Virus record (IMG/VR): IMGVR_UViG_3300046787_000415
Span: 1-63,948 of that record
DNA length: 63,948 nucleotides
Origin: a virus
Strand: one strand, 5' to 3'
A program made the translations under genes and the position numbers. Numbering within the stretch: the stretch's first letter is position 1; each line of letters opens with the position of its first letter. Of the stretch, positions 22,215 to 63,747 are shown piece after piece. The notes below the pieces were generated by a model that worked only from the letters and a program-made list of their open reading frames with translations, was not told where the DNA came from and did no database searches.

Positions 22215-23207
22215 TCAGCGCTCCGATATTTTTTTGTGAAGCATCTCCGCGAGATGGGTATGCATATGCACCCCCATGTGCCTCGCCTTATCTAACGCGT
22301 AGTCCCAGTCAGAGTTATGGGGCAGATCTTGGTGACACTCGGTTACTAGATTTGCACTCCTAAGAAGAAGATCTAAGTCCTCTAATACTATGTAGTCCGA
22401 CATATCTAGAGTGTTATCATATCTAGTTGCAGTATCTAGAGTTTTAGCTTTCTTCTCCGATAAAAATCTATCTGTGTCTGGATACCATGTAGTCAGTACA
22501 AGTTTTATCTTTGCTGCCTTACAGTAATCAATCAAATGATTTATAGACATCATCGACATATATAGGACTGCTTCGTAGGAAATAACTTTAGTTATGTCAT
22601 ACGGACGTTTACTATATGTTGGCCAATTTATGACGTCATCGGCTTCGCTCCCAGAGGGGGTCATGTTCATGTCAAAAGGTATAACTTTACTATAGCTAGG
22701 GTATGTAGTTTTCTCGACCCTATGCGGCTCACCCCCTGGACCAGTGTATGGGTATGAATTTATGTCTACCCTGATAGGTAGGCTAAATCTATATAAGCTA
22801 GGTAAATTTACGCATATAATTTTTGGTACACCATACTCTCGTATGTAAGCAAAAATTAAGTTAATTATAGTTTGATTACCCGCACCAGGCTTCGCTACAT
22901 TTGCGTAAGACATACCCAAAGACGCCGCTAAAATTGCTGGCCAAGTATCACTGTCGTTTTGAATACCAGTGCCAAACGTCTGAGAACAGCCAGCTACAAG
23001 TAGTTCAGTAGATCCTAATTCTGGACCACGAAAACCTCTAGAGTTTAGATTGTACGTAACTGGATCACCTGATTCGTCAGACCTATCAGTACTGGTTCCA
23101 AGCAGGGTAAATTCTGTAAGTTTTCTATACAGCTGATTATCATTAAATACATCTTTAGATAGCTGATCATACTCATATGCATAAGTCTTATCATCACGTT
23201 TAGGCAT
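22215..23207 (-). CDS. SGNH/GDSL hydrolase-like protein, paralogue 3
   Basis: 330 aa. AGCSQTFGTGIQND near 67-80 (block I), PGAG turn, and the C-terminal HMGVHMHTHLAE. More diverged than paralogues 1 and 2 but with the same order of motifs. TAGGAG precedes the ATG. Likely esterase fold, substrate unknown. Confidence 0.6.
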   Translation of the reverse strand: MPKRDDKTYAYEYDQLSKDVFNDNQLYRKLTEFTLLGTSTDRSDESGDPVTYNLNSRGFRGPELGSTELLVAGCSQTFGTGIQNDSDTWPAILAASLGMSYANVAKPGAGNQTIINLIFAYIREYGVPKIICVNLPSLYRFSLPIRVDINSYPYTGPGGEPHRVEKTTYPSYSKVIPFDMNMTPSGSEADDVINWPTYSKRPYDITKVISYEAVLYMSMMSINHLIDYCKAAKIKLVLTTWYPDTDRFLSEKKAKTLDTATRYDNTLDMSDYIVLEDLDLLLRSANLVTECHQDLPHNSDWDYALDKARHMGVHMHTHLAEMLHKKISER

Positions 23208-40828: not shown

Positions 40829-40835
40829 GTTTACG

Positions 40836-41212
40836 TGGAGATGGCGGGAATTGAACCCGCGTCCGATCAAGGACTAACTATTCTTCTACAAGCTTAGTCG
40901 GTGTATATTTCCAGGACCGCGCCGACACATCCTGTGGTGCTTCAGTTTTACGTCTCCAGCATGGACGCAGTGCGGGTTATTCTATTTATTTAAGACCTGA
41001 CTGCCCAGCTAGAACTACTGCTTTGTCAGGGGCTCTAAAGCGTTTCTTATTCTATACATTTTCAATGAAATGTATAGAATAAGAATCATTTACGCTACTA
41101 GTGCGAATGCTGAACGTGAGTTTGCATTTATTGCTTTGCCCGATTTAAGAGGTACAGGCTTCTCTGCTTGCTTCACTAGTTTGCTGAATGACCGTCGAAA
41201 CCTGTCATCCCC
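40836..41212 (-). ncRNA. ssrA: Transfer-messenger RNA (tmRNA)
   Basis: 377 nt. The 5' end GGGGATGACAGGTTTCGACG and 3' end GGACGCGGGTTCAATTCCCGCCATCTCC are hallmarks; GGGGATG pairs with CATCTCC (one G.U) as acceptor stem. The tag frame (41134-41090) encodes AINANSRSAFALVA and then TAA, ending in the hydrophobic tail used by ClpXP-type proteolysis. CCA is not encoded. It rescues stalled ribosomes; a phage copy may serve during heavy late translation or recode the tag. Confidence 0.93.
41044..41085 (-). repeat. Perfect 18-bp hairpin inside tmRNA
   Basis: TTCTTATTCTATACATTT pairs without mismatch with its complement across a 6-nt loop, immediately after the tag stop codon. It occupies the place of helix 5 of tmRNA and is unusually long and AT-rich. 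Confidence 0.8.
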
Positions 41213-41283
41213 GTCATATTTAGTTATAAGAGTATTGTAGCAGGTAGTACTGCAGACTGACTCAGTGAAATCATACAATACAG

Positions 41284-41351
41284 CGCCGCGTCAAGGGATC
41301 GGACCCTGCAAGACAGACTTTGGAGATCCGTCCGTACCCAGTACCCGCGAC
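41284..41351 (-). tRNA. tRNA-Trp (CCA) with shortened D-arm
   Basis: 68 nt. Anticodon loop CTCCAAA with a good stem, discriminator G as for Trp, acceptor GTCGCGG/ACGCGGC (six of seven pairs). The D-arm is reduced to GTAC-TGG-GTAC without the conserved G18G19 loop, and the T-loop is TCCGATC. Function is plausible but uncertain. Confidence 0.6.
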
Positions 41352-41355
41352 TAAA

Positions 41356-41445
41356 TTGAACTACCTGGATTCGAACCAGGGCTTCGGATTATGTCCTGCA
41401 TTTAGACCTCCGTGTGCTGCCACTAACACTATAGCTCCAGGTTCA
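41356..41445 (-). tRNA. tRNA-like gene, aberrant
   Basis: A canonical T-arm (CCTGG-TTCGAAT-CCAGG) and a D-arm-like GTG...CAC hairpin are visible, but the acceptor pairs at only five of seven positions and no proper anticodon arm can be drawn. A GGA/TCC hairpin may be a long variable arm. It could be a decayed class II tRNA or a tRNA mimic. Confidence 0.4.
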
Positions 41446-41861: not shown

Positions 41862-41896
41862 ACTTGATACTAGAGGTGGTCATCCTTAGTACCCCG

Positions 41897-41960
41897 TGGA
41901 CTGTAGGGATTTGAACCCTGTTACCGCCTTAACGTGGTGCTCACGCATACAGTGCAGTCC
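41897..41960 (-). tRNA. Truncated tRNA-Asn-like gene
   Basis: Only 64 nt. Acceptor GGACTGC/ACAGTCC (six of seven pairs), T-arm AGGG-TTCAAAT-CCCT, and an anticodon-like loop ACGTTAA with GTT but C instead of the invariant T33. The D region is about six bases shorter than normal. Perhaps a decayed second copy of tRNA-Asn or a decoy. Confidence 0.4.
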
Positions 41961-41986
41961 TAAGCAGTTTCGACCGCTTGCTTAGG
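41959..41986 (-). other. 8-bp hairpin E upstream of the Asn-like gene
   Basis: CCTAAGCA/TGCTTAGG with a 12-nt loop; the stem overlaps the first bases of the truncated tRNA, so folding of the two may be alternative. A processing signal is possible. Confidence 0.4.
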
Positions 41987-42502: not shown

Positions 42503-42537
42503 ACATAAATAATAAACCCTACCTGACATAGTGTCAA
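42503..42537 (-). promoter_or_regulatory. TTGACA-17-TATTAT promoter, leaderless start
   Basis: Minus strand: TTGACA (42537-42532), 17 bp, TATTAT (42514-42509), TTATGT, ATG. The best match to a SigA promoter in the window. Confidence 0.82.
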
Positions 42538-42559
42538 GTAGGGTTATTATTTTTAGATA

Positions 42560-42905: not shown

Positions 42906-43199
42906 CTAAGCTGGGCGTCTGTTCCTTCTAAGCGTGCTGCGCTGAGCTTCAGTAGTTCCGCCCCATATACCCATTACTCCAGTTTTCACTGCATATGATA
43001 GGCAATCAAACTTGAGCTCACATCCGCCGCAGACGCTTTTTGCCTGCTGAATACTTGGGTAAGAACTGCCTATAATCCTGCCTTGCGCATCCTCTGTGTC
43101 GACGGAGAAGAAAAGCTCTGGGTCTACCTGAGCGCAGGCTGCCTCACCTTCAAATACAAACTTCGGAATTTCTGCATTTAGGGAGGCTTTGGATGCCAT
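42906..43199 (-). CDS. WhiB-like transcriptional regulator
   Basis: 97 aa from the ATG at 43199 (GAAGGA upstream). Four cluster-binding Cys: C22, C57, C60 and C66, followed by the GIWGGT turn (77-82) and a basic C-terminus. WhiB proteins bind a 4Fe-4S cluster and contact sigma factor SigA. They are confined to actinobacteria and their phages. May redirect host transcription or block host Wbl functions such as superinfection-related pathways. Confidence 0.92.
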   Translation of the reverse strand: MASKASLNAEIPKFVFEGEAACAQVDPELFFSVDTEDAQGRIIGSSYPSIQQAKSVCGGCELKFDCLSYAVKTGVMGIWGGTTEAQRSTLRRNRRPA

Positions 43200-43271
43200 A
43201 GGTGTGTATCCTTCTTTAGACGTATCTATATTGTATTTAAACAAGCAAATAAATGCAACTTAGAGTAGAAG

Positions 43272-53904: not shown

Positions 53905-54798
53905 ATGGCAAAGAAAGAGGCTGGCGGCCGTTCCGCTGCTCAAAATGACTTCCTGGAGCCCTTGGCACCAGAGAATGTGACCGCGACTGATGTAGGCACT
54001 AACCGTGCCTACGATAATGGCGCACTTACAATTACCTGGACGATTAATGCTTTATCTCCAGCGCCTACAGACTATCTAGTAGTCAATAGCGCTGGTACAA
54101 CCATCGGCAGCGGAACTCTTCCTACACCATCTAACGGTACATACACAGCTACAGTTACAGGACTAGCTAGCAACTCTTCAGTCACAGCTATTGTCAAGCT
54201 ATCTAATGCCGCTGGAACTTCTCAGGGGACTGCGGCACCTGCTAGAACCGTGACTACTGTACCAGCTAAGCCCGCTGCACCAACAGCATCTTCAACAGTG
54301 CCAGACCAAGACTCTGTCTCTTGGACAGCACCAGCCGACGGTGGAAAAGCTATTTCCAGCTACACCTGGGCATCTACAGATGCTAAGGGAAATACAGTCG
54401 CTTCAACTATCACTTCAATAGTTGTTCCACAGGAAATGAATACAGCGCAGCAGTACAGTGTTATTGCGACTAACGCTAACGGTAATTCTGCTGCATCAGA
54501 TCTGTCAGGTAACGTAACAACACTACCTCCGTTCTTCCCACCATTCTTCCCACCTTTCTTCCCACCTTTCTTCCCATTCTTCCCACCTTTCTTCCCACCA
54601 TTCTTCCCGTTCTTCCCACCTTTCTTCCCACCATTCTTCCCGTTCTTCCCACCTTTCTTCCCTCCTTTCTTCCCTCCATTCTTCCCACCATTCTTCCCGT
54701 TCTTCCCACCTTTCTTCCCTCCTTTCTTCCCGCCATACTTCGCTTACTCGATTCCATGGGAATCATGGGAAGAGCTAAAGGAAGACGACGATAAGTAG
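53905..54798 (+). CDS. FN3 protein with Phe-Phe-Pro-Pro repeat tail
   Basis: 297 aa. Two fibronectin type III-like modules (about 20-115 and 117-207), then about 70 residues made only of Phe and Pro in FFPP/FFP units (about 208-278), closing with an acidic tail (ELKEDDDK). It immediately precedes the terminator and the oxygenase operon. A polyproline-like aromatic rod could insert in a membrane or wall. It is the most proline-dense candidate substrate in the window. Confidence 0.75.
   Translation: MAKKEAGGRSAAQNDFLEPLAPENVTATDVGTNRAYDNGALTITWTINALSPAPTDYLVVNSAGTTIGSGTLPTPSNGTYTATVTGLASNSSVTAIVKLSNAAGTSQGTAAPARTVTTVPAKPAAPTASSTVPDQDSVSWTAPADGGKAISSYTWASTDAKGNTVASTITSIVVPQEMNTAQQYSVIATNANGNSAASDLSGNVTTLPPFFPPFFPPFFPPFFPFFPPFFPPFFPFFPPFFPPFFPFFPPFFPPFFPPFFPPFFPFFPPFFPPFFPPYFAYSIPWESWEELKEDDDK
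54526..54735 (+). repeat. Tandem FFPP/FFP codon repeat
   Basis: Short-period repeat of TTC TTC CCA CC(A/T) units interrupted by TTC TTC CC(A/G) TTC TTC. Codon choice varies at third positions, so the protein repeat is probably selected rather than a recent slippage product. Confidence 0.85.
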
Positions 54799-54867: not shown

Positions 54868-55599
54868 ATGAATATTTGGTTCACTAAAGATAGATCAGAG
54901 ACTGCATCCTCTAGAATGGCAGACCGCCAACTAGGCCATATGTCAGTACTCAATCCAGCACTAGGTATAAACGTCTATCGAAACGCTATATCAGCATCCG
55001 ACTGCGACAGATACATCTCTCAGTTGGAGGCCAATTTAGACGGCAGCACCCAGTTTCAGTGGAGCAATGCCAAAGTCTCCAACTCTGCTGAGGTCGATGA
55101 TTACGCTAGAAAAGCTCAGGACTTCAAGGTTTCAAGCAACAACTTAGGGCCTAGAACTTCAGAGAACTCTACCCTCTACGATCTCCACGAAGAGATTTTT
55201 CAGAAGCTACGCATGTGCGTCGATGACTACGGAGCCTACTGGGGCGTAGGCATACGAGCTTACGAAGCATTTAATTTTGTAAAGTATGAAGGTGCTGGCA
55301 CTCAGTTTAGGATTCACGCCGATCACGGGCCAACATACGTCGCAACAATATCTGCCGTTATATATTTAAATGATAACTACGAAGGCGGGGAGCTCTGGTT
55401 CCCACGATTCGGTGTAGACTTAAAGCCGAAACAGGGCGATATTGCAATTTTCCCTTCTACATTCATTTACGAGCATGCCTCGAAAGAAATGATAGACGGG
55501 ACCAAGTATGCCGTAGTTGTTATGACTGACTATCACGATAGAGATGGCGTCAATCAAAGAGTTTCCCAAGTTGTCGAAGACTATAAACTAAAGTACTAA
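54868..55599 (+). CDS. 2OG-Fe(II) oxygenase, fibre-cluster member 1
   Basis: 243 aa. H150-x-D152 (IHADHG), H203 (YEHAS), K213; core strands YLNDNYEGGELWFPRFGVDLKPKQGD. First gene after the terminator, with its own TAGGAT box 7 nt before the ATG and no Shine-Dalgarno sequence. Prolyl-4-hydroxylase-like fold; probable protein substrate. Confidence 0.87.
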   Translation: MNIWFTKDRSETASSRMADRQLGHMSVLNPALGINVYRNAISASDCDRYISQLEANLDGSTQFQWSNAKVSNSAEVDDYARKAQDFKVSSNNLGPRTSENSTLYDLHEEIFQKLRMCVDDYGAYWGVGIRAYEAFNFVKYEGAGTQFRIHADHGPTYVATISAVIYLNDNYEGGELWFPRFGVDLKPKQGDIAIFPSTFIYEHASKEMIDGTKYAVVVMTDYHDRDGVNQRVSQVVEDYKLKY

Positions 55600-55607
55600 G
55601 GATAAAA

Positions 55608-56390
55608 ATGGCACAGGACCTAACTCCAGAAGAGCTAGTAGAGAAGCAAAAAGCAGACGCCGCTATTGATCTAAAGGGCAAGCAAGAGCAGCAAAATCTT
55701 CAAAATAGATTAGCTAAGTGGTACACCTTAGATGAGCAAACATGGTCATCCTCTCAGGAAGTAATCCCTGGTAGCGGTATCTGGGTCTATAGGGACGTTC
55801 TCCCTAAAGAGATGAATATCATTAAGCGACTAGAGTCTGTTGTAGACGATCCATCCAATAACTATGACTGGCGTGAAGCTATGGTTGGGTATCAAATGAA
55901 GATGCCAGAGTATCGCGACTGCGTAGATTTTAAATACAAGAAGACCGACATAGAGCATGACAGTTCTGAAGCTGGAGAAATCCTAAAGAAGCTAGCAGAT
56001 GACGTGACATATAGAGAACTCCAGGTAGTTAAGGACTATACCCGCCACTACAACATCGGCGAGCTTCGCTACTGGGAAGCGACTAACTACGTTCGTTACG
56101 GCGAAGGCCAGCACTTCCAGGAGCACCACGATCACGGCTACTCATACAACTGCGTAGTCTCTCTAGTAGCATTTCCAAACGACGAGTATGAGGGGGGCGA
56201 GCTGTTCTTTAGACTGCAGAACGCGCAAATAAAGGCTCGCGCTGGTGATGTATATATCTTTCCATCGAACTTCATGTATCCTCACCGCGCTATGCCAGTG
56301 AAGTCAGGTGTCAAATACTCAATGGTTACGATGCTAGATTTCTCTGAAAAATATCACCGCCCAGAATTCTATGAAGATACAGACGCATAG
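55608..56390 (+). CDS. 2OG-Fe(II) oxygenase, fibre-cluster member 2
   Basis: 260 aa. H173-x-D175 (EHHDHG), H226 (YPHRA), K236; PNDEYEGGELFFRL core. A charged helical N-terminal extension (about 1-45) is specific to this copy. AAGGA before the ATG; stop overlaps the next GTG (TAGTG). Confidence 0.87.
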   Translation: MAQDLTPEELVEKQKADAAIDLKGKQEQQNLQNRLAKWYTLDEQTWSSSQEVIPGSGIWVYRDVLPKEMNIIKRLESVVDDPSNNYDWREAMVGYQMKMPEYRDCVDFKYKKTDIEHDSSEAGEILKKLADDVTYRELQVVKDYTRHYNIGELRYWEATNYVRYGEGQHFQEHHDHGYSYNCVVSLVAFPNDEYEGGELFFRLQNAQIKARAGDVYIFPSNFMYPHRAMPVKSGVKYSMVTMLDFSEKYHRPEFYEDTDA

Positions 56391-57157
56391 TGAGTGTTAT
56401 CAAAGTCCAAAAGCTTTTCCCCGAGGGTAAAACAGCTAACATAGAGCAGCTCCAAGCTCGTCGAGATTGGATGGATAGTACCGACGATAAGCACGCCTAC
56501 ATGTGCTTCCCGATCAATCTGACTAATAGACTTGGATGGGGGATATCGTTTCCCGAGGATCTTAGGTTCATCTGGGACGGCATAACTGACACCACTCCAG
56601 ACCATGTGACGATTTTAGAGGGTCATCAGTTTCTAAATACTGGTAGAGGAAACGCCACTATTAGTTTTACTACTGGATTGAAACTTATAACCGACTCTGA
56701 TACTACGATGTTGACCATGCCAGTCCCTAATCAATTTATTAGAGGGACCCAGTGCTATACGACTCTAATGAGTACCTCGTTCTATATGCACATGTTGCCT
56801 ATAGCCTGGCGACTCACTGAGCCTAATGTAGAAATATATATCCCTGCGGGGACACCAATTGCCGCAGTATTGCCAATATCATTGAACGCCCTGCAGCAGG
56901 ACTACAGCCTAGAAATTTTAGATGGCCTTCCGACCCAGGAGTACTGGCAGGAAGTTCGCAAGTATGGCGACATCCAAGAAATCAAGAATGGTGTAGGCGA
57001 TTGGTCAAAAATGTACCGAGATGCTGTCGACTATAGAGGAGAAACAGTGGGAGCCCACGAAACAAAATCAATCAAGCTTAAGACAGTAACGTGCCCATTC
57101 ACTGGCCAGACCTATGAAGTAGAGGAGGGGGAGTCGGATGGACACTCAGAAAGCTAA
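56390..57157 (+). CDS. Conserved phage protein, DUF6065-like, copy 1
   Basis: 255 aa. No metal triad. Shares with the next gene a central core ending in IPAGTPIAAVLPI (IPAGTPYAQILPF there), so the two are paralogues. The name DUF6065 is from memory and unverified. Possibly a cupin-like or jelly-roll protein acting with the oxygenases. GTG start coupled by TAGTG. Confidence 0.5.
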   Translation: MSVIKVQKLFPEGKTANIEQLQARRDWMDSTDDKHAYMCFPINLTNRLGWGISFPEDLRFIWDGITDTTPDHVTILEGHQFLNTGRGNATISFTTGLKLITDSDTTMLTMPVPNQFIRGTQCYTTLMSTSFYMHMLPIAWRLTEPNVEIYIPAGTPIAAVLPISLNALQQDYSLEILDGLPTQEYWQEVRKYGDIQEIKNGVGDWSKMYRDAVDYRGETVGAHETKSIKLKTVTCPFTGQTYEVEEGESDGHSES

Positions 57158-57878
57158 ATTCATACTAAATAGACCGTGGCTCAATAACGAGAGCCCGTCT
57201 AAGCCAGGACCTGCAATAAAGACTATTCCAGATTGGTATAGAAACGCAGATCGTTTTGCTGTCAACCCAATGACGGGGAAGCCCTGGGAGATGCCAAACG
57301 GTGGAGGTAAGATTCCCACATGGAAGGCGTGTCCAGCCGTATACGACATCATGGGCAGCGGGTATATGTATAAGACTCCCTGCGATATAGAGTTCTACGA
57401 GGATTCTATGGGGCAAATCCAAGTTAAAGTTTTGGACGAGAAGAATAAAGATTTTATCCAAGAACGTATGCCGATGCCGCAATTCCATAACCCATATGGA
57501 TACCACGAGAAGCATTTTGCTTGGTGGGCTGACTGGGCCGTAGAGCTGCCTGAAGGCTACAGCGCTCTATATACCCAGCCTTTCAACCGTTTCGAGTTAC
57601 CATTCCTGACGACCAGCGGGATTATCGACAATGACAAGGTGCATTTACCTGGCACTATGCCATTCTTCATTGCTAAAGGATTCAAGGGGACTATCCCAGC
57701 TGGCACACCCTACGCCCAGATACTTCCGTTCAAGCGCGAGAACTGGGAGTCGGAGACGATTACTAAGTTCGGGCCTATGGAGATGATGGCAAAAAATCAG
57801 GAAAATAGTGTTAAATATCGAGTTCCAGATGGCGGCGTATATCAACGCGAGGTCTGGGAACGACGTAAGTACGAGTAG
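57138..57878 (+). CDS. Conserved phage protein, DUF6065-like, copy 2
   Basis: 246 aa. Contains IPDWYRNADRF near the N-terminus, a Trp-rich centre (HFAWWADWAVELP) and the shared PAGTPYAQILPF core. Overlaps copy 1 by 20 nt with GGAGGGGGAG as ribosome-binding site. Unknown function; co-expressed with the oxygenases. Confidence 0.52.
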   Translation: MDTQKAKFILNRPWLNNESPSKPGPAIKTIPDWYRNADRFAVNPMTGKPWEMPNGGGKIPTWKACPAVYDIMGSGYMYKTPCDIEFYEDSMGQIQVKVLDEKNKDFIQERMPMPQFHNPYGYHEKHFAWWADWAVELPEGYSALYTQPFNRFELPFLTTSGIIDNDKVHLPGTMPFFIAKGFKGTIPAGTPYAQILPFKRENWESETITKFGPMEMMAKNQENSVKYRVPDGGVYQREVWERRKYE

Positions 57879-57892
57879 GGTAGGATAGCTAT

Positions 57893-58570
57893 ATGGCAAT
57901 GACAGCGCATGTTACTAACGGTAGCGATAGACCTTATGAATCAACCACGCCTTCTGGATTTTTCGGTGACTCTAAAGACAACATTGTTGCACTCGAAAAC
58001 TTTATGACCGAGGATGAGCTCAGAATTTTAACGGAGTTCGCCAAGACTAACCAGACCTGGGATAAAACCGAGACTCACTACAACGAGGACGGAACTGTCA
58101 TTTATGACTCTGGCTACTGGGACCATAGAGTTGCTACTGCCCCTACGCTAAACAGCGTGGATCCTTCGATCTCGGAACTTATTGTGGGCATGCAGCTTCG
58201 ACTAAAGGAGAAGGTAGACGAGTTCTTTAGCGTGGATGCGCATGCGACTAGCCCTGCAATCGTTAGGTGGCTTCCTGGCCAGCGCCAACAGCCTCATGCC
58301 GATAAAGAGCTTCACGAGGGCGAAAACCGCGGCAAGCCGAACGACTTCCCATACTACGACATCGCTGGTCTTTTCTACATCAACGATGACTACGAAGGTG
58401 GTGAACTATACTTCCCTAACCAGGGGATTCAGTTTAAACCTAAGGCTGGAGCGGCATACTTCTTTCCTGGTGACATGCACTACATCCATGGAGTGACGGA
58501 GATTAGGTCTGGAATTAGATATGTATGCCCATTCTTTTGGACTATAAAACGTCACTTAGATAAGGGTTAA
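57893..58570 (+). CDS. 2OG-Fe(II) oxygenase, fibre-cluster member 3
   Basis: 225 aa. H135-x-D137 (PHADKE), H199 (YIHGV), R209 (GIRYV); INDDYEGGELYFPNQGIQFKPKAGA core typical of prolyl 4-hydroxylase catalytic domains. TAGGAT box 6 nt before the ATG, so a second internal leaderless promoter. Confidence 0.9.
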   Translation: MAMTAHVTNGSDRPYESTTPSGFFGDSKDNIVALENFMTEDELRILTEFAKTNQTWDKTETHYNEDGTVIYDSGYWDHRVATAPTLNSVDPSISELIVGMQLRLKEKVDEFFSVDAHATSPAIVRWLPGQRQQPHADKELHEGENRGKPNDFPYYDIAGLFYINDDYEGGELYFPNQGIQFKPKAGAAYFFPGDMHYIHGVTEIRSGIRYVCPFFWTIKRHLDKG

Positions 58571-58572
58571 AT

Positions 58573-59349
58573 ATGGCGGAGTCTAGAGACCTGCTTAAGT
58601 ACGTTACTGTATATTCGGGACTATTAGATAATCCGAATGAGGTAGTAGATGCGGTGCTACATGCACCGCACGGCCCTGGGTATATTCTGACAGAGCCAGA
58701 AAAAAATGCTAGGCCAGGCACCCATAGAGTCTCTCTTCACGAAATATACGCAGATAATAGGCTCCCAGACAACGAGAACATAGTGGGGGGCGCAGCCTTT
58801 AGGCATCTCAACGCTAGGTATCCAGCTAATCTGATTCTCCCAGATGATACGGCCTATGACCCCGTAACTAAATCCCTCTTTGCCTTTGAGTCAGCTATAG
58901 GTGACTATATGTCCCGCTGGGATTTAAAGTTTACGATAGATCAGTATACCCCCATAGATTTTAGATACCATGAATCCCCGTTTTTAATCTATCCTCACTC
59001 GGACTATCAAGGATTCTCTAAGTTACATCCAGATTGGCCAATACCAGACGAACACATGCCGCCCCATGAGCCAGATAACTTTACTTTGGCCATAAATCTA
59101 TACCCCAATGATGACTACGAGGGTGGCGAGCTCTGCATAAGGCTATATAAAAAACTTGAAGATGGTAGTTACACTTTCAATGAAACCGAGGACGTCTACT
59201 ATAAACCAGTTGCAGGAGACATTGCAATTTTTCCTTGCGCATTCCCCTACGAGCATTGGGTAGCACTGGCTCCTAAAGACGGGGATAAGCGGTTTGTAGT
59301 TAATATTCATGCTATCCAAACTGAGCAGCCTACTTGGCAGTTTGAATAG
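58573..59349 (+). CDS. 2OG-Fe(II) oxygenase, fibre-cluster member 4
   Basis: 258 aa. H142-x-D144 (PHSDYQ), H228 (YEHWV), R240. Between HxD and the NDDYEGGEL core there is an insertion of about 25 residues, and a further insertion follows GGEL, so the active-site rim differs from member 3. Confidence 0.87.
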   Translation: MAESRDLLKYVTVYSGLLDNPNEVVDAVLHAPHGPGYILTEPEKNARPGTHRVSLHEIYADNRLPDNENIVGGAAFRHLNARYPANLILPDDTAYDPVTKSLFAFESAIGDYMSRWDLKFTIDQYTPIDFRYHESPFLIYPHSDYQGFSKLHPDWPIPDEHMPPHEPDNFTLAINLYPNDDYEGGELCIRLYKKLEDGSYTFNETEDVYYKPVAGDIAIFPCAFPYEHWVALAPKDGDKRFVVNIHAIQTEQPTWQFE

Positions 59350-59386
59350 TGTTATAGACTAGTTACTCTAGTAGGTTAGGAAAATT

Positions 59387-60172
59387 ATGTATCTCGAGCA
59401 GAAGCTACACGAGAATGTTTATCTATATTCGGACACATTAGACGATCCAGCGCGTCTACTTCGACTAATCGAAGAGCTAGACGAGGACGAAACTGTTCAG
59501 TCTGTGATCCCTGAGTGGGGTTTCTGGTTCTCTAATACGCAGGATGGGCACAGCTTCGGCAGTAAAAAAGACTTCAACCTAGAGGGCCTAGACGAGCTTA
59601 CCTCTGAACGCGCTGAAGATGTCCGCTGGGTTGTAGGACAAATTCGAGGTGCCATCGAGAACATCTCTCATGCTTTCTATAAAGATCATGAAGAAGATGG
59701 AGAGCCTAATGTATCCCCATTCGCTGGTATCATGAAGTATAGGCCAGGCTGCGCCATGGGTGCTCACTTTGACGCACAGGCTGGTGACCTAAGCATCAAA
59801 TGGTCGATTGTTGTATATGTAAACGATGACTATGATGGCGGAGAATTATCATTCATCATCAGACCATACGACTTACGTAACCCCAAAAATGGGCACCTAC
59901 GTCCAGCAGACGATGTTAATGACCCATCGAATTCTGAATTAGTAGACTTCACAATCAAGCCTAAAGCTGGCCAAGCATTAATCTTCCCATCTACTCATCC
60001 GTATAAACACCAGGTGCATCTAATGAAGAGTGGGGATAAGTATATGTTCCCTGGATTTATCTTTCAACCAGAATTTGATGCAAATGACCCAGAGTCTCGT
60101 AAGAAGTTTAACGCTGGTTCGGCGTACAACGACGTGAATGCTGGGCCAGCTAAGTATCTAGACGAGGACTAA
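59387..60172 (+). CDS. 2OG-Fe(II) oxygenase, fibre-cluster member 5
   Basis: 261 aa. H127-x-D129 (AHFDAQ), H208 (YKHQV), K218; VNDDYDGGELSFII core followed by a long insertion before the second His. TTAGGA precedes the ATG. Confidence 0.87.
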   Translation: MYLEQKLHENVYLYSDTLDDPARLLRLIEELDEDETVQSVIPEWGFWFSNTQDGHSFGSKKDFNLEGLDELTSERAEDVRWVVGQIRGAIENISHAFYKDHEEDGEPNVSPFAGIMKYRPGCAMGAHFDAQAGDLSIKWSIVVYVNDDYDGGELSFIIRPYDLRNPKNGHLRPADDVNDPSNSELVDFTIKPKAGQALIFPSTHPYKHQVHLMKSGDKYMFPGFIFQPEFDANDPESRKKFNAGSAYNDVNAGPAKYLDED

Positions 60173-60173
60173 C

Positions 60174-60821
60174 ATGTCTGCACCAATCGTCGAGGTTCTC
60201 CATAGGAACGTTTATTATTTTCCAGGAGCTATCCCAGAGATAGCGAACGTTATGACAACGCTAGAGGATCTTAATAGTCTCTCCGTGACCCCTTGGGAAA
60301 CTTGGTATGCCAACAATGACTCAAAAGAGAATCCATACGGAGATTTGAAGACACTTAGCTATCCAGATTTGATTAGAGAGTCTAACCCACTAATCAAAGA
60401 AAAATCAGAGTACGTTTTAAACTCGATTCTGGGGTCAATGGTAGATTGTACAGCAATCTACCTAAGATCCCAAGGGGCAGCCGAGTCAGAGTTGGACCAC
60501 CTACATAAAGAGATTTTTGGGACCCACACGTATGGAATTCGTAGATACGACGAGCATAAAGACATGGGGCCTCATCGGGATATGGTTGTTCCAGGTAGGG
60601 ATACAATAACTATCGCTGTGTATTTAGATGATGAGTATGAGGGTGGCGAGCTAGGAATCGTGCAGCCAGGACTAGATATAGCTATAAAAAACAAGGCTGG
60701 CAGTATTGTAGTATTCCCCTCGGGGTATCTACACGAGTCCAGACCATTAATTAGCGGTCGTAAGACAATAATTACTCACGTACATATGCCTATAAATAGT
60801 CTTATTAATATGGAAGTTTAA
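60174..60821 (+). CDS. 2OG-Fe(II) oxygenase, fibre-cluster member 6
   Basis: 215 aa. H134-x-D136 (PHRDMV), H187 (YLHES), R196/K197; LDDEYEGGELGIV core. Starts one base after the previous stop, so translation is coupled. Confidence 0.87.
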   Translation: MSAPIVEVLHRNVYYFPGAIPEIANVMTTLEDLNSLSVTPWETWYANNDSKENPYGDLKTLSYPDLIRESNPLIKEKSEYVLNSILGSMVDCTAIYLRSQGAAESELDHLHKEIFGTHTYGIRRYDEHKDMGPHRDMVVPGRDTITIAVYLDDEYEGGELGIVQPGLDIAIKNKAGSIVVFPSGYLHESRPLISGRKTIITHVHMPINSLINMEV

Positions 60822-60831
60822 CGAGGATTAG

Positions 60832-61710
60832 ATGGAAGACTACACTAGAGATAATCCAGATGTCGAAATACTAGATGACAACGTAATAGTATTTCATAAT
60901 GTACTATCCGATCCTGACGACTATATCGATTACTACGAAGAGTACGGCGACTGGAGAGGCTGGTACGGTTTCGGACGTCAAATAGATAGCAGAGTGCACA
61001 CATTCATAGCGCACCCGCACTTCCCTACGCTAGAGGAGTGGGAGAATGTTGCTAAAAAAGCAGAAACCGATCAGGGGGAGGACAAATACTTTTTAGAAGT
61101 AGCTAAAGCATTCCACTTTGCAACTAAATTCTATGTCGAGCACACTGGACTATCACTCCCCAACTGGTCATGCCAACCTTGGGGGCTGGCTAGATACATA
61201 CCAGACGAAAATCTAAATGGTAATGATCAATTAACCATGAATTATCACTCTGACTATATGCCAGAGATCGCCGATAGTCCTGGAGATAAATTTGGTATAA
61301 CGGGCGTCCTATATCCAAATGATGACTACGAAGGTGGAGAGATCGCATACCGCGTGATCGAGGACGGGAAAGTTATACGAGAGTTTGAATATAAGCCAAA
61401 AGCAGGAGATTTGGTGATATTTCCTTCAGGATACCCGTATTTCCACGGAGTTAAGAGGATATACGGGGCACCTAAATATATAACAAGACTCTACTGGATG
61501 TACAACTTCGAAGGCACTCAGGACTGGCACGAGCTTAAAGAAAAGTATGGCGACGAGTTTGAGGAACTAGAGGCAGCGCGTAGAAAGCGCCATGATCTAA
61601 AGGTTATGGATCCGTATATGAAGATGAGAGTCACTTTGAAAGAGTATTATCAGCTTCTAGAATCAGGTAAGCTAAAAGATCGTTACGAACCAGACGAAGA
61701 GATTTACTAA
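60832..61710 (+). CDS. 2OG-Fe(II) oxygenase, fibre-cluster member 7
   Basis: 292 aa. H139-x-D141 (YHSDYM), H205 (YFHGV), K215; PNDDYEGGEIAYRV core. A C-terminal charged extension (about 225-292) with many Glu, Lys and Tyr is unique to this copy. Confidence 0.87.
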   Translation: MEDYTRDNPDVEILDDNVIVFHNVLSDPDDYIDYYEEYGDWRGWYGFGRQIDSRVHTFIAHPHFPTLEEWENVAKKAETDQGEDKYFLEVAKAFHFATKFYVEHTGLSLPNWSCQPWGLARYIPDENLNGNDQLTMNYHSDYMPEIADSPGDKFGITGVLYPNDDYEGGEIAYRVIEDGKVIREFEYKPKAGDLVIFPSGYPYFHGVKRIYGAPKYITRLYWMYNFEGTQDWHELKEKYGDEFEELEAARRKRHDLKVMDPYMKMRVTLKEYYQLLESGKLKDRYEPDEEIY

Positions 61711-62574
61711 ATGCCAGAAAAATCGATAAAGATAATTGAAGCTATATCTATCGAGGATCTTCTTAGTGATATAGACGCCCTTAAGGCGGTATTTAAGCGT
61801 GACGGTGTCTTAGTTATTAGAGGTGGAGACTTCTCACTCGAAGATCAGGTAGAGTTGACAAAAACTCTAGGTGATTCCATGGGCTGGAATGTGTCATCAG
61901 ATGCTGCCCGCTCTACCATAGAAACCTCTATCTACCCTGGTGGCCACTCTGACAATCTAGATAAAGATTATAATCAGACCTCTGAAGAGTATGTTTTGGA
62001 TTGGCACATAGAGCAGGTGTATTATGTCTCTCCAATACTTGCTGGAGTGTGGCACATGACAACTTTTACAGCACCTGCTGGCTCGGGCACTACTAGATTT
62101 GTAGACTCTGCTGAACTATATGCACTATACAGCAACGAGGACAAAGAGTTTCTTGCTAGATCAATAGTAAAATGGGACAAACCTACGCCACATGGTACTG
62201 GACCTTTTTATACGAAGGTAGTAGATAAGCACCCACTGAGCGGTCAAGAACTTCTTAGAGTGGAGACAGACCAAGGCTCGTATTTGATGCCTGAACTAGC
62301 GCTCTGGGATGGAAAACCTCCAACAGAAGAGCAAGTGAATAGGCTAAATGACTTACTAGACGTACTCAAAACTAACCTAAATGATAATTTAGAGATTAGA
62401 TACTCACAGCTATGGGAAGAAGGCGACATCCTAATAGTCGATTTATTTAGGATGTACCACTCCGTGATGGGTGGTTTTACCGCTGGACAGCGTAAATTCA
62501 CTGGAATTGGGATTAGGCCAAAAGTCTATGACAACAGTATGTATACAGACATAGAGTTATGGATCAAGAGATGA
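61711..62574 (+). CDS. TauD/TfdA-type 2OG oxygenase, fibre-cluster member 8
   Basis: 287 aa, a different branch of the superfamily: RDGVLVIRGGDF at the start, metal site H99-x-E101 (WHIEQV, Glu instead of Asp), H250 (MYHSV) and R261 (GQRKFTG). TauD relatives act on small molecules such as taurine, amino acids or carnitine precursors. Starts directly after the previous stop. Confidence 0.8.
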   Translation: MPEKSIKIIEAISIEDLLSDIDALKAVFKRDGVLVIRGGDFSLEDQVELTKTLGDSMGWNVSSDAARSTIETSIYPGGHSDNLDKDYNQTSEEYVLDWHIEQVYYVSPILAGVWHMTTFTAPAGSGTTRFVDSAELYALYSNEDKEFLARSIVKWDKPTPHGTGPFYTKVVDKHPLSGQELLRVETDQGSYLMPELALWDGKPPTEEQVNRLNDLLDVLKTNLNDNLEIRYSQLWEEGDILIVDLFRMYHSVMGGFTAGQRKFTGIGIRPKVYDNSMYTDIELWIKR

Positions 62575-63038
62575 GCGAACTAAAAACAGAGCATGTCGAC
62601 ATGGTCTCTGACTATAGAAATCGTGTAGCCAACAAAACTGCTGACTCTTACATGCTTACCATTGCCCGAGACGGTGAGTCTCCAGCTAGGTCTATATACT
62701 TCTATGGTGATGCAGTGGACGCCGCTACTGGATATGCAGCCTACACAGACTGGGGATTTGCTAAAGATTTCTTGACTGTCGAGCTGTACGAGCCTACTGG
62801 TAAGGTGCACACTAAGGTGCTTAGACGTCCACGCGGCGGGGAGTGTACTTTTGTTCGTGAGGACTACCACAAAACTAGCCAGATTTTAAAGTCGGTAATT
62901 GGTAGAATTCCCACAGAGTCCCATCGCTATCTGGCTGTAGAGTTTGCTAAGCTATTCTCGAAAGACAATCAAAGATTTGATAGCAGTAGATTCCTAGTAG
63001 AACTAGGTTATGAAGGAGATTTAGATGACAAATACTGA
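62571..63038 (+). CDS. Hypothetical protein in oxygenase operon, 155 aa
   Basis: Unrecognised, no metal triad. ATG overlaps the previous stop (ATGA), and its end overlaps the next oxygenase by 14 nt. Mixed alpha/beta by composition; possibly an accessory subunit. Confidence 0.6.
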   Translation: MSELKTEHVDMVSDYRNRVANKTADSYMLTIARDGESPARSIYFYGDAVDAATGYAAYTDWGFAKDFLTVELYEPTGKVHTKVLRRPRGGECTFVREDYHKTSQILKSVIGRIPTESHRYLAVEFAKLFSKDNQRFDSSRFLVELGYEGDLDDKY

Positions 63039-63747
63039 GTTCGGTGAGAAGACTTTCTATAAAGACGATATCATCTCGTATGAGGACTTCATCTCTCCTG
63101 AAGAATGCGCTAAAATCGTAGAATTTTTTGAAGACCCAGAGCAGCCTTGGAGCATGTCAGCGTTCTTCGAGTCATATGGTATGAGCATCATGCCAGAAGA
63201 TCCATTGCTGGAGAAATACGGCCTACCTACTGACTACCTAGGTAAGCTTGCAGACAGAATGAAAGCAGCAGTGGAAGATGCCCATCAGCGCCCAGTAAAG
63301 TCAGTCTCGTCTCACGCTCAGAAGTGGCAAGTAGGGGCGTTTGCCCCATTCCACTCGGATAACACTGACATGGAGGGCAACTGGTCAGCATGGGAGAAGA
63401 GTAAGCTAGTCTGCCTTCTCTACATCAATGACGACTACGTTGGTGGAGACTTGAACTACCGAGACCACCCAATCACCATTAAGCCAAAAACAGGGCAGCT
63501 AATCACCTTCCCTGGTGGCATTGGTAACGTACATGAAGTTAAGGTTGTAGAGTCAGGAACTCGCCACACCATTGGCGCTTTCTGGGATTACGCAGAGTCT
63601 ACCTACACCGAGGAGCGCATGGCGGAGTGGGAAGCTGAAATTGAGGGTGTTAGAGCCCAGCAAAAAGAGATGCAGGCAGAGTGGAAGGACCAGCTTGATA
63701 AGGGCGAGCACCCCCTCAAGTCTGGCGGCAACACTGGGGGCTACTAA
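63025..63747 (+). CDS. 2OG-Fe(II) oxygenase, fibre-cluster member 9
   Basis: 240 aa. H110-x-D112 (FHSDNT), H170 (NVHEV), R180 (TRHTI); INDDYVGGDLNYRDHPITIKPKTGQ core. Ends with a coiled-coil and Gly-rich tail. Last gene of the operon, before the next tail promoter. Confidence 0.88.
   Translation: MTNTEFGEKTFYKDDIISYEDFISPEECAKIVEFFEDPEQPWSMSAFFESYGMSIMPEDPLLEKYGLPTDYLGKLADRMKAAVEDAHQRPVKSVSSHAQKWQVGAFAPFHSDNTDMEGNWSAWEKSKLVCLLYINDDYVGGDLNYRDHPITIKPKTGQLITFPGGIGNVHEVKVVESGTRHTIGAFWDYAESTYTEERMAEWEAEIEGVRAQQKEMQAEWKDQLDKGEHPLKSGGNTGGY

Follow-up and report, generated by a model that had tools for sequence, protein, structure and literature searches.

The window analyzed here, a 63.9-kb virus record taken as a whole (63,948 nt), was confirmed to contain a complete one-piece phage tmRNA (ssrA) gene on the minus strand at 40837..41212. 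tmRNA is the RNA that frees stuck ribosomes and marks the unfinished protein for destruction. ARAGORN called a minus-strand tmRNA at 40835-41212, and the covariance-model search that the initial annotation had proposed gave a match to Rfam RF00023 at 40833-41212 over the full length of the model (1-374), with 138.8 bits (E 2.8e-54) against a gathering score of 47 bits. That annotation had recognized a tmRNA at 40836-41212; the identity stood, and the strand is here corrected to minus. It had also described the acceptor stem and T-arm as complete, in agreement with the 7/7 pairs of the acceptor stem GGGGATG/CATCTCC (41206-41212 with 40837-40843, minus strand) and the 5/5 pairs of the T-arm GCGGG/CCCGC (40844..40860, minus strand), which was also placed by Rfam. 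The tRNA-like domain thus held both the T-arm and G3-U70, the alanine identity pair. In RNA coordinates (position p is window position 41213-p), the acceptor stem occupied 1-7/370-376, the tag 88-120, the UAA stop 121-123, and the T-arm 353-369. The 3' end read ...CTCCACGT and CCA was absent from the gene; the tail must therefore be added post-transcriptionally.

The tag frame (GCA...GCG TAA; 41090..41125, minus strand), located with ARAGORN and by tag comparison, encoded the 11 residues ANSRSAFALVA. It combined an alanine resume codon (GCA at 41125, within AATAAATGCAAAC), a stop, and a hydrophobic -LxA end. The tag first proposed, AINANSRSAFALVA, had the correct frame and TAA but was too long, because GCA-ATA-AAT (the extra "AIN") stands upstream of the resume codon; these codons aligned with the pre-resume segment of the RF00023 consensus. 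Nine relatives, picked by tmRNA 5' end or NrdE with no use of the tag, encoded ANSRSAFALAA in eight cases and AESRSAFALAA in one, all with a stop, so the tag is conserved within the phage lineage. The 31 IMG/VR contigs matched by a tag DNA pattern all ended in LAA, and the LVA end was found only in the window; the pattern fixed residues 1-9, so these contigs test the tag end alone, and other tags in the lineage would escape it.

Host tags were compared with that of the phage. Examples were ANSKRTDFALAA for Microbacteriaceae and other Micrococcales, AKSKSTDFALAA for Rhodoluna, and ADNSRSDFALAA for small-genome aquatic actinobacteria, and D before FALAA or YALAA was kept in many of the sampled tags. 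The phage tag was found in no sampled actinobacterial genome, either by a pattern over 84,980 species, which demanded a GCA resume codon although GCC or GCT serves in most hosts, or by a search free of this limit that covered 395 Actinomycetes. The initial claim that the phage tmRNA carries its own tag was therefore upheld, the tag differing from every sampled actinobacterial one. A changed tag specificity, also proposed, fared less well: the tag is lineage-conserved and its C-terminal end resembles that of host tags, which makes altered specificity no more than a possibility. Under such tag switching, the phage tmRNA would compete with that of the host, and stalled proteins would receive a tag lacking the acidic residue (AFALxA versus DFALAA), altering the choice of protease or adaptor. 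The stability of the tag across the phage lineage and its difference from sampled hosts, many with D before FALAA or YALAA, speak for this explanation. We nevertheless consider it unlikely: the C-terminal degron is kept (LAA, here LVA), LVA is among the degradation-tag variants in use (PMC9382460), and AFALAA also occurs in some host tags (Streptomyces-type). The LVA change probably keeps degradation, given that this ending is among the variants employed in synthetic degradation tags (PMC9382460).

Conservation of the RNA structure was investigated in an alignment of nine phage tmRNAs. Pairs changed on both sides numbered 27 in the named structure versus 13.2 in shuffles and at most 11 with slid partners; the shuffle control leaves relatedness in, and the slid control removes it. 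Likewise, 88.5% of cells paired, versus at most 45% for slid partners. P1 covaried at pairs 4 and 5 with G3-U70 invariant, and the T-arm and PK2 covaried as well. Covariation in the acceptor stem, T-arm, and PK2 argues that tmRNAs of this type are under selection. The PK1 pseudoknot (AGAG/CTCT, GCCTG/CGGGC; 41138..41165, minus strand) lay 5' of the tag and was placed by alignment and covariation; its stem 2 appeared broken as aligned in two relatives (G001 and G003), which by our own reading of the alignment could pair GCCAC/GTGGC one position off. PK2 (CCTGAC/GTCAGG, CAGT/GCTG, loop TTCTA with TAGAA; 40980..41030, minus strand) showed compensatory changes, as did a PK4-like pseudoknot (CAGGA/TCCTG, GTCGG/CCGAC; 40897..40934, minus strand), which covaried in three sequences: the window, G004, and G005. 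A separate observation concerned one relative's tmRNA (L005:2313-2633, plus strand), uncalled by ARAGORN, which had an intact tag and an atypical T-loop, GGGGC-TCTCGGAT-GCCCC, and is possibly damaged.

In tmRNA, P5 comes after the tag. Alignment placed the P5 helix of the window (CTAG..GCG/CGC.TTAG) at 41035..41101 on the minus strand, closing over the last tag codons and the stop. The helix was weaker in several relatives, and in several a short P5 could form by pairing of CTAG, within the final codons of the tag, with TTAG past the stop, leaving the stops in the loop. Directly after UAA, the P5 loop of the window carried ~46 extra nt, whose core is an 18-bp perfect hairpin with a loop of 6 (41044..41085, minus strand). 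The initial annotation had reported this hairpin after the tag, and rightly: it was the sole perfect hairpin of at least 12 bp (loop 3-12) within the window, and 20 first-order Markov shuffles gave at best one of 12 bp. The insert was absent from all relatives compared, including the 31 tag-DNA contigs, and stands where many of them carry tandem stops. Membership in a repeat family was considered and rejected, as no second copy of an arm was found within two mismatches in the window or the related loci. From these comparisons, the insert is best read as a tolerated P5 extension just past the stop codon. It could instead indicate that the window copy is decaying, the palindrome being a recent insertion that removed a tandem stop while the tag drifted. 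The insert and the A10V change co-occur only in the window, which counts against a working tmRNA and would also fit early decay. Yet the core helices, frame, stop, G3-U70, and leader are all intact and the outer stem of P5 can still pair despite the insert, and we regard decay as improbable. Similarly doubtful is the proposal that an uncultured aquatic actinophage lineage fixed its own tag, ANSRSAFALAA, unlike those of hosts, to redirect tagged proteins in infection, and that the window then added LVA and the P5 hairpin, which would alter tmRNA termination or stability.

A conserved leader box, AACTAAATA, was identified by leader comparison 4 nt before the mature 5' end (41217..41225, minus strand). 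Its consensus, AAYTAAATA, was conserved before the phage tmRNAs (the window, L003, L004, L006, and L262-L288): with up to one mismatch, 21 distinct leaders had it no more than ~10 nt from the 5' end, the remaining upstream DNA being unrelated, and it was missing in two contigs (L271 and L286). A -10-like hexamer, TACAAT (41234..41239, minus strand), stood 8 nt upstream of the box in the window and was recognized only by consensus match and recurring spacing; similar hexamers (TACAAT, TATACT, TATAAT, and the like) stood exactly 8 nt before the box in 10 of the 21 leaders, a spacing that would place the transcription start near the box. No -35 box was identified at the tmRNA leader. In Rhodoluna and some relatives, ATAACTAAACAT directly preceded their own ssrA, and the box (up to one mismatch) was found in 10 of 72 leaders compared, 70 of them from actinobacterial genomes. 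The box looks like a transcribed leader common to host ssrA, with an RNase P leader or a transcription start region as candidate roles. Rhodoluna-type host ssrA was also seen preceded by the box form AACTAAACA, and the box preceded some phage tRNAs, e.g., a tRNA-Ser in L294 at 19450. A role as a general phage promoter or tRNA leader was rejected: there were 5-7 boxes per genome, most away from RNA genes, and those outside tmRNA and a few tRNAs are probably mostly chance.

The genome context indicated that the contig is an actinophage fragment, judging from WhiB, NrdEF, and related 150-kb phage contigs. A WhiB-like regulator, an actinobacterial-host marker recognized by profile and sequence matches, was encoded at 42906..43244 (minus strand), 1.7 kb upstream of the tmRNA, followed by NrdF, NrdE, and NrdI. 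WhiB points to an actinobacterial host (PMC10202952). ARAGORN found tRNA-Gly, tRNA-Asn, and tRNA-Met in the same cluster. A 152-kb relative (IMG/VR contig 3300046787_000438), with an NrdE 96% identical to that of the window, had the order WhiB, small protein, tRNA-Met, small ORF, tmRNA, tRNA-Asn, tRNA-Gly, whereas the tmRNA of the window stood at the far end of the tRNA array; its place has therefore shifted. The tmRNA is dispensable, being present in only nine of 50 phage records chosen by NrdE or 5' end, many of which are fragments; this weighs against the reading as a working tmRNA. A recent capture of the gene from a host, or a host contig wrongly classed as viral, would account for the resemblance of the leader and acceptor stem to Rhodoluna ssrA, but this origin is very improbable: phage genes and phage tRNAs flank the tmRNA, the neighborhood is repeated in the 152-kb phage contig, and the phage tag is in no sampled host. 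The leader box, NrdE, and the acceptor stem together weakly suggest a link to aquatic Microbacteriaceae. NrdE did not fix the host: the closest cellular match was a Rhodoluna MAG at 78%, and most of the small aquatic genomes examined lacked NrdE. BLAST with the complete tmRNA, run against both phages and host genomes, mainly matched the conserved 3' end and was not used for placing the gene.

Other features of the window were noted in passing. A promoter-like TTGACA-17-TATTAT lay inside a 14-bp terminator-like hairpin at 42509-42545 (minus strand), with a 29-bp core identical in the 152-kb relative (G004) and with one mismatch in G012; this element may be both the end of one unit and the beginning of the following one. 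Three tRNA-like stretches uncalled by ARAGORN (41265-41345, 41356-41438, and ~41895-41965, minus strand) appear to be decaying or unusual tRNAs: one resembled tRNA-Trp (CCA) with a short D-arm, one had a ~20-nt anticodon loop (Rfam 31.7 bits), and one had an odd anticodon loop. Between 12932 and 37035 (minus strand), at least six similar proteins of 310-360 aa (12932, 14269, 22215, 24561, 30275, 36097) shared a GCSxTxGxG-type motif and a His-rich C-terminus and were GDSL-hydrolase-like by eye; the one at 22215 had no match in Pfam, PHROG, or phage records. Translations at 54868-63747 (plus strand) revealed an extended series of 2OG-Fe(II)-oxygenase-like ORFs adjoining tail-fibre genes, unusually many for one phage fragment, and an Fn3-like protein with a C-terminal repeated FFPPFFPPFFP tract was encoded at 53905-54798 (plus strand).

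We think it likely that the gene encodes a functional phage tmRNA, one that adds to ribosome rescue in infected cells. Its expression, charging, tagging, and benefit we infer as follows. Transcription during infection would start from its own -10-like box, from the tRNA array upstream, or from both; host RNase P would cut the 5' end, and CCA would be added. Host AlaRS would charge it with alanine via G3-U70, and host SmpB would bind it. No SmpB was found in the 13 phage records searched, with a positive control, and host SmpB would therefore be needed. Once inside ribosomes that had stalled on broken mRNA, the charged RNA would contribute Ala and then ANSRSAFALVA, as read from the resume codon, with termination at UAA and delivery of the tagged product to host proteases of the ClpXP type. 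Such an RNA would be beneficial in keeping rescue running where host ssrA has been lost or shut off, or cannot cope with the mRNA breakdown of infection.

By 2014, tmRNAs had been listed in ten phages, among them mycobacteriophages Bxz1, Cali, Wildcat, and others, and Bacillus phage G; the listing includes a form with little beyond the tRNA-like domain, and a similar molecule inhibits host tmRNA (PMC4131195). The mycobacteriophage and phage G genes are likewise phage-borne ssrA, in other hosts, a likeness drawn from the listing. tmRNAs are also annotated in Streptomyces phages (Stanwilliamsviridae), with the tags ANSKFAFALAA in Samistivirus Targaryen and ANSNVASAYALAA in Karimacvirus CeilingFan. 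These are one-piece and belong to large actinophage genomes, as in the window, and the Targaryen tag is very close to ANSRSAFALVA; in contrast, they are 267-279 nt long versus 376-380 for the window, lack the AAYTAAATA leader, and come from phages of soil Streptomyces. The tmRNAs of related uncultured actinophages (e.g., 3300046787_000438, 152 kb) share a near-identical 5' half, the leader, the neighboring tRNAs, and a tag equal save A10V, but they lack the 46-nt hairpin, end in LAA, and often have tandem stops. The ssrA of a Rhodoluna limnophila MAG shares the acceptor stem GGGGATG and the missing CCA, with ATAACTAAACAT as its leader, but its tag, AKSKSTDFALAA, has TD before FALAA, and its pseudoknot region is not alignable in detail with that of the window. 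Phage tmRNAs are thus already known, and the present one joins them with a lineage-specific tag and an individual P5 extension. The described phage tmRNAs gain about 30 members from uncultured aquatic actinophages, together with structural covariation. A tag shared by no sampled host is a clean marker, since metaproteome peptides that carry it could be assigned to infection, and the LVA ending is a natural counterpart of one employed in synthetic biology.
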